Below are positions 19,321-20,312 of a stretch of DNA of 64,000 nucleotides, piece after piece (the first letter of the stretch is position 1; each line of letters begins with the position of its first letter). The stretch covers positions 1 through 64,000 of the forward strand of contig JAISYK010000007.1 of the NCBI GenBank assembly GCA_031269945.1, given 5' to 3'. The notes below the pieces were generated by a model. That model saw nothing but the letters and a program-made list of their open reading frames with translations, did not search any database and was not told the DNA's origin. The translations under genes and the position numbers were made by a program. The DNA comes from Candidatus Endomicrobiellum calonymphae. Its GTDB lineage: Bacteria > Elusimicrobiota > Endomicrobiia > Endomicrobiales > Endomicrobiaceae.

Positions 19321-19772
19321 TGGAGGTGGCGGGAATCGAACCCGCGTCCGAAAATGTTTCAGTAAGACCGCTACAGGTTTAATCTGGAACTTCTTCATCA
19401 TACAACGCTACTTCCAGACAAGATCACGTTATAAACTGCTACTCTTTCATTCATTTTGAACCTACGACACAAATCGCCAATAACCAACTTGCCCTTTGTA
19501 GTTTTGCTCTTACAGCAGACGCCCAAAATAAAATACGACTTGTTTGTTCTAAGCAGCTATTGGCATTTCTCTAAGACTCCTAAAGTCCTTAAAACCATTT
19601 TTTATTCCAAGAAGAGCCAACAAGAACATTCCCAATCCTAGAATTTTAAAACTCTGCATTGAAGTAAAATCATTATTGTTGTTTATTTTTTAGTCGATTT
19701 TTACGGAGCCATCGACTAACTCCGACCTGCTGTCATTACATCAATCGTTCCCGTCGAACCCCATTCACCCCC
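19321..19772 (-). ncRNA. ssrA: Transfer-messenger RNA (tmRNA) with unusually long tag frame
   Basis: The minus-strand 3' end GGACGCGGGTTCGATTCCCG plus CCACCTCCA is the tRNA-like domain. The 5' end GGGGGTGAATGGGGTTCGAC pairs with it over 7 bp (GGGGGTG with CACCTCC). Pseudoknot 1 is visible as GGAG/CTCC and AGTCGAT/ATCGACT. About 7 bases after it the U-A-A-A-C spacing precedes a resume codon, as in other tmRNAs. From AAC at 19680 the frame stays open for 43 codons to TAG at 19549. It begins NNNDFTSMQS and ends REMPIAA, a proper AA degron end. Tags are usually about 8-35 residues, and the RNA (452 nt) is about 90 nt longer than usual. tmRNA rescues stalled ribosomes with SmpB. Confidence 0.93.
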
Positions 19773-20312
19773 CCCCATTGCTATCTCACAACTTAATAAA
19801 CCTCGCCTTTTTCTATTTTCAATTCTCCTTTCTTTAAAAAAACTTTTGATGATATTTGAGCATCTAGTACTCAAATATTCTTCTTTCCCGCCATTGACCT
19901 CTGTCTTATGATTAAGTTTTTTGCATACATTTGCTTTACATATGCCTTCATCGCATACACCAACCTTTTTGTAGAATGCACCAAAAACGATTTTCTCTAT
20001 TCTAGCGTTTAGTAAAGCTCCCATACACATCGTACAAGGCTCTATTGTAACATATATGGAGCAATTGTTCAAACGATAATTCTTCAACTTTTTTGCAGCT
20101 TTTCTCAATGCAACGTTTTCAGCATGAGCTGTAGGATCGGATAATGTAATACATTTATTAAAACCTCTTGCTATTATTTTTTTATCTTTAACTATAACTG
20201 CCCCTATAGGTATTTCTTTTACTTTTTTTGCTTTATAAGCTTCCTTTATAGCTTGAAGCATAAAATAAGCATCATCTATCTCTGCGATTTGTTTGTTTTT
20301 CTCTTTATTCAT
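19716..20312 (-). CDS. tadA: tRNA-specific adenosine deaminase
   Basis: A 198-residue deaminase that converts A34 to inosine in tRNA-Arg. Catalytic zinc motifs are DPTAHAENVAL (HAE) and EPCTMCMGALLNARI (PCxxC), with GAFYKKVGVCDE downstream as expected. The core ends near SFFKERRIENRKRR. The frame has no stop there and continues about 28 residues through a 9-G run into the ssrA gene, stopping inside tmRNA pseudoknot 1. It therefore overlaps ssrA by 57 bases on the same strand. No clear ribosome-binding site precedes the ATG; a later ATG at YFMLQ is possible. Confidence 0.9.
   Translation of the reverse strand: MNKEKNKQIAEIDDAYFMLQAIKEAYKAKKVKEIPIGAVIVKDKKIIARGFNKCITLSDPTAHAENVALRKAAKKLKNYRLNNCSIYVTIEPCTMCMGALLNARIEKIVFGAFYKKVGVCDEGICKANVCKKLNHKTEVNGGKEEYLSTRCSNIIKSFFKERRIENRKRRGLLSCEIAMGGGEWGSTGTIDVMTAGRS

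Follow-up and report, generated by a model that had tools for sequence, protein, structure and literature searches.

A predicted tmRNA tag with a hydrophobic core in Candidatus Endomicrobiellum calonymphae and its relatives in one clade

The tmRNA tag is usually regarded as a short soluble degron of 8–35 residues, which is the length range given in reviews (PMC3968760, PMC8012679). Tagged proteins are degraded by ClpXP, ClpAP, Lon and FtsH, the last of which takes the membrane-associated ones in E. coli (PMC3985003). Our literature search retrieved no work on tmRNA in the genus studied here, and tmRNA is unmentioned in the group's genome paper. Here, we analyse an unusually long tag encoded in a window of 64,000 nt, i.e. 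the whole stretch of DNA under study, from the genome of Candidatus Endomicrobiellum calonymphae (designated G000), an endosymbiont of termite-gut flagellates. A covariance search revealed a full-length match of the window to Rfam RF00023 (19318–19772, minus strand, model positions 1–374, E 1.7e-51). The features of the locus are as follows, in window positions:

19716–20312, minus strand: tadA-like deaminase ORF directly upstream of ssrA, its frame entering ssrA by 54 nt
19321–19772, minus strand: one-piece tmRNA (ssrA), 452 nt to A73, CCA not encoded, RF00023 score 128.4 bits
19692–19724, minus strand: pseudoknot 1 (PK1), intact as judged from the sequence, in a 92-nt layout as in relatives
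19681–19686, minus strand: resume determinant AUAAAC (U-5, A-4), the same or nearly the same in 38 distinct tmRNAs
19549–19680, minus strand: tag reading frame by translation, 43 codons plus TAG, frame homologous across the genus
19603–19644, minus strand: hydrophobic core, tag residues 13–26, ILGLGMFLLALLGI, KD 15-mer maximum 2.21, found in four species
19567–19602, minus strand: basic segment, tag residues 27–38, KNGFKDFRSLRE, net positive after the core in 4/4 core tags
19552–19566, minus strand: C-terminal degron MPIAA, an MPxAA-type end frequent in the genus
19385–19548, minus strand: PK2–PK4 region, partly eroded, keeping 47/57 consensus pairs of the 3' part vs 50–57 in relatives (a score that leaves the pseudoknot partner stems aside)

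The acceptor stem, read from the sequence as GGGGGUG/CACCUCC with a G3–U70 pair, and the T arm are normal. Together with the full-length match and PK1, they bear out a previous sequence-only reading, which had considered the tmRNA well supported at its ends and at PK1, had placed A73 at 19321, and had noted U(-5) and A(-4) in front of the resume codon (AUAAAC followed by AAC). The genome also carries an smpB gene, which scores 160 bits, above the cut-off, and has an open frame. ARAGORN made no call for the window tmRNA and often missed or misread those of genus relatives as well; since the program is blind to such genes, others may be unannotated. Position of tadA directly upstream of ssrA in the relatives checked indicates that the ssrA genes are orthologous. 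The tadA-like ORF has no stop ahead of ssrA in the window and at three further loci (L066, L065, L029), and tmRNA 5' maturation would thus leave a non-stop tadA mRNA. The two genes overlap by 69 nt in G012 and by 5 nt in G033 and G016, and in ten other species tadA stops before ssrA. A similar overlap has been described for smpB/ssrA in Carsonella (PMC4131195).

Translation from AAC at 19680 to TAG at 19549 yields NNNDFTSMQSFKILGLGMFLLALLGIKNGFKDFRSLREMPIAA*, ending in REMPIAA-TAG, and reproduces the 43-codon open frame proposed earlier. A set of 38 distinct tags, including two from beyond the genus, was read from the homologous resume codon; over 1055 codons the tag frame contained no stop, as compared to 73 and 95 in the alternative frames, and no relative was found to use a different frame. 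Sequence comparison hence indicates that resume site and tag frame are homologous across the genus and that the frame is secure; its being more open than expected by chance is explained by the need for a degron. The RNA preceding the tag measures 92 nt in nearly all species and the part following it 226–233 nt in most. As both parts are near-constant, the excess in length corresponds to tag codons, as had been suggested, and amounts to ~63 nt when the RNA is measured against its own genus (455 vs 391). Tags of the genus comprise 14 to 50 codons with a median of 25.5, and six out of 36 exceed 35 codons. Tags beyond the genus, as called by ARAGORN, have 8–24 residues. With 43 residues, the window tag falls outside the range of the reviews. 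In the class, 78 genomes gave a match, and of these G000, G015, G062, G006, G033 and G039 have a tmRNA of at least 450 nt. In G039 the length results from an insert of ~100 nt in the PK1 region (locus L036), while the tag is ordinary (ANENLALAA). In G021 (L054), the contig holds a tmRNA without most of PK1 and without the tRNA-like part at the 5' end, which could reflect the assembly; its tag has 49 codons and an internal near-duplication.

A hydrophobic core is predicted in the tags of four species, which comprise 43, 43, 43 and 47 codons: in the window, in Ca. Endomicrobiellum glyptotermitis (G062; NNNLVSMQNFKVFVSGMFLVGLFFGMRKKSKGFENLGAMPVAA), in Ca. E. mastotermitis (G015; NDDLTSTQNSKIPILGTLLLGFFLWIEKKFKGFKNLGAVPMAA) and in Endomicrobium sp. 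Md513_bin60 (G006; DSNSIPMHNTNSLAGLGGVMLALLALRTRKTNTKRENFRMQEVSMAA). Their KD15 values range from 2.15 to 2.27 as compared to at most 1.58 in all other tags, and their longest runs without charged residues, N, Q, H or P span 13–15 residues, whereas those of the other tags span 4–12. All four share one layout, that is a polar start, a hydrophobic 14- to 15-mer, a basic segment and an -AA end. Such a core is missing from all remaining tags examined in the genus. The alignment of relatives shows frame, length and hydrophobic segment to be conserved. The suggestion that the segment is a private in-frame insertion merely held open by the degron was not borne out, as it is common to at least three other species. 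In the FtsH tree, the four species and G001 form one clade with a support of 100/100, in which G006 branches first (99/97; 99.9/100 in a three-gene tree). Judged from these sequences, the hydrophobic segment extends beyond this species within one well-supported clade, which is a new finding. The tag of G001 has 22 codons and no core, showing that the core is dispensable. Due to this short tag, the tree requires two changes, either a gain with a subsequent loss or two gains; the three-gene tree leaves the placement of G001 loose, and the two scenarios are equally parsimonious.

What does the core confer on the tag? With 14–15 residues and a KD15 of 2.2 it is short for spanning a membrane completely, and summing over 19 residues on the biological scale gives positive, i.e. 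unfavourable, values. The basic segment behind the core fits poorly with a tail that crosses the membrane and should stay cytoplasmic. When modelled on the basis of the four-sequence alignment, the tag forms one helix over residues 3–37, with the best pLDDT at residues 11–20 (block mean 88). When the tag was searched against known domains and solved chains, no homologue was found. A separate small protein starting at an internal ATG is unlikely, as G015 lacks an ATG ahead of the core. Tentatively, we favour a working tmRNA whose tag has gained a clade-specific module, in which a hydrophobic helix and a basic segment would together provide a membrane-seeking tail in addition to the usual degron.

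The main rival of this membrane-tail reading is neutral drift of tag length, which is possible. In that case, the tag would need no more than its resume end and its -AA end, codons in the middle would come and go in small endosymbiont populations, and a T-rich stretch would encode hydrophobic residues by chance. Tags of the genus indeed differ widely in length and have unrelated middles, including non-hydrophobic ones of 49 and 50 codons, and the core is missing from one member of the clade, G001. Moreover, an equally hydrophobic 15-mer occurs in 5–6% of random open 43-codon stretches at the GC content of this genome (32.5%). At this chance level, a single tag alone would be unremarkable; its recurrence in four species is remarkable. 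The architecture is the same in these species despite large divergence, identities to the window tag being 26–48% across the hydrophobic-core tags. Hydrophobicity is also retained better than in substitution shuffles (a rough test with a star tree and a hand-made alignment gives a joint P of 1.4e-4 to 1.6e-3), which is unlikely under neutrality. Per-position amino-acid identity of the three 43-codon tags, in turn, does not exceed that obtained with shuffled substitutions, as drift would predict, leaving strong purifying selection on identity unsupported. The dN/dS of the tags is near 0.3–0.5, calculated from few sites. Overall, the evidence that selection keeps the core hydrophobic is moderate, not strong.

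It is unlikely that the core acts as a stronger soluble degron, i.e. as an exposed greasy stretch that is read by Lon or ClpX and has no role at the membrane. G000, G062 and G015 each have an intact Lon, and the clpX of G015 survives as fragments with broken frames, flanked by intact clpP and lon genes (L186, G015:C6:38000-43200). There is a precedent in Mesoplasma florum, which lacks ClpXP and has an ssrA tag of differing length and sequence that is read by Lon (PMC8138137). However, G000 and G062 retain both ClpX and ClpP intact, and a basic flank would not be needed for such a degron. Intact ClpXP also led us to reject its loss as the cause of the long tag; that is, no switch of protease was forced on G000. 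Decay of the tmRNA to a pseudogene with a leftover reading frame could account for the partial loss of PK2–PK4 pairs in G000, but it is very improbable, as tRNA-like domain, PK1, resume site, frame and -AA end are all kept, SmpB is intact, and sister species with the same tag type hold 54–57 of the 57 pairs. There is next to no chance that the middle segment is a structural RNA insert or a mobile repeat that is open by accident. Single sequences do fold at about -25 to -29 kcal/mol, but the relatives have no strong fold in common (consensus -10.6 kcal/mol) and no shared helix is seen in the middle segment; the presence of such a helix had been named as an observation that would speak against coding. 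The 132-nt stretch is present in a single copy in the genome, arguing against a repeated element.

Under the membrane-tail reading, the module would have been inserted between the ordinary N-terminal part of the tag (N/D...MQ) and its ordinary C-terminal degron (MPxAA). Rescued polypeptides would gain a membrane-seeking tail and might come to lie at the surface of the inner membrane; there, membrane-bound FtsH could take them from the exposed C-terminus using the C-terminal 17–21 residues as a handle. ClpXP and Lon would still be able to read the -AA end. SmpB, ClpX, ClpP, FtsH and Lon are all intact in G000, and we infer that the tag probably favours membrane-associated proteolysis by FtsH beside ClpXP and Lon. 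The hydrophobic tag of unusual length that retains its -AA end, as described initially, stands, and the targeting to a membrane or a different protease proposed along with it may follow from this architecture. The full scenario, in which trans-translation in this clade adds a membrane-directing tail that brings rescued polypeptides to the inner membrane for clearance by FtsH, is doubtful. In the hydrophobic-tag clade, whose genomes are 60–85% complete, searches found neither an intact copy of periplasmic-type Prc nor the second FtsH-like protein that many relatives have. A clade whose tag carries a retained hydrophobic helix would imply that the fate of rescued proteins, beyond tag length alone, can evolve. 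The genus provides a natural series of short, long soluble and long hydrophobic tags, along with species in which clpX is broken or possibly absent. In G033 and G029 (L041, L049), full matches to ClpX or ClpP were not detected in genomes that are 95% and 80% complete, and the tags end without AA (PLFA and QSVV).

Mesoplasma and Mycoplasma, whose tags are read by Lon, likewise combine an unusual tag with a reduced genome. Those bacteria lack ClpXP, which is present here, and the portions of the two sources at hand (PMC3985003, PMC8138137) do not describe a membrane-like core for their tags. With ordinary tags of its own genus (e.g. NDKFVPMQSVKPFMGFGAMPIAA), the window tag shares the N-terminal N/D..MQ motif and the MPxAA end, and it differs from them by ~20 extra codons, which hold the core and the basic segment. 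As in the standard bacterial tmRNA, exemplified by E. coli with its tag AANDENYALAA, there is a tRNA-like domain, PK1, the resume rule, an open frame and a C-terminal -AA. Unlike the E. coli tag of about 10 codons, however, the tag described here comprises 43, with a hydrophobic core and a basic segment inserted.
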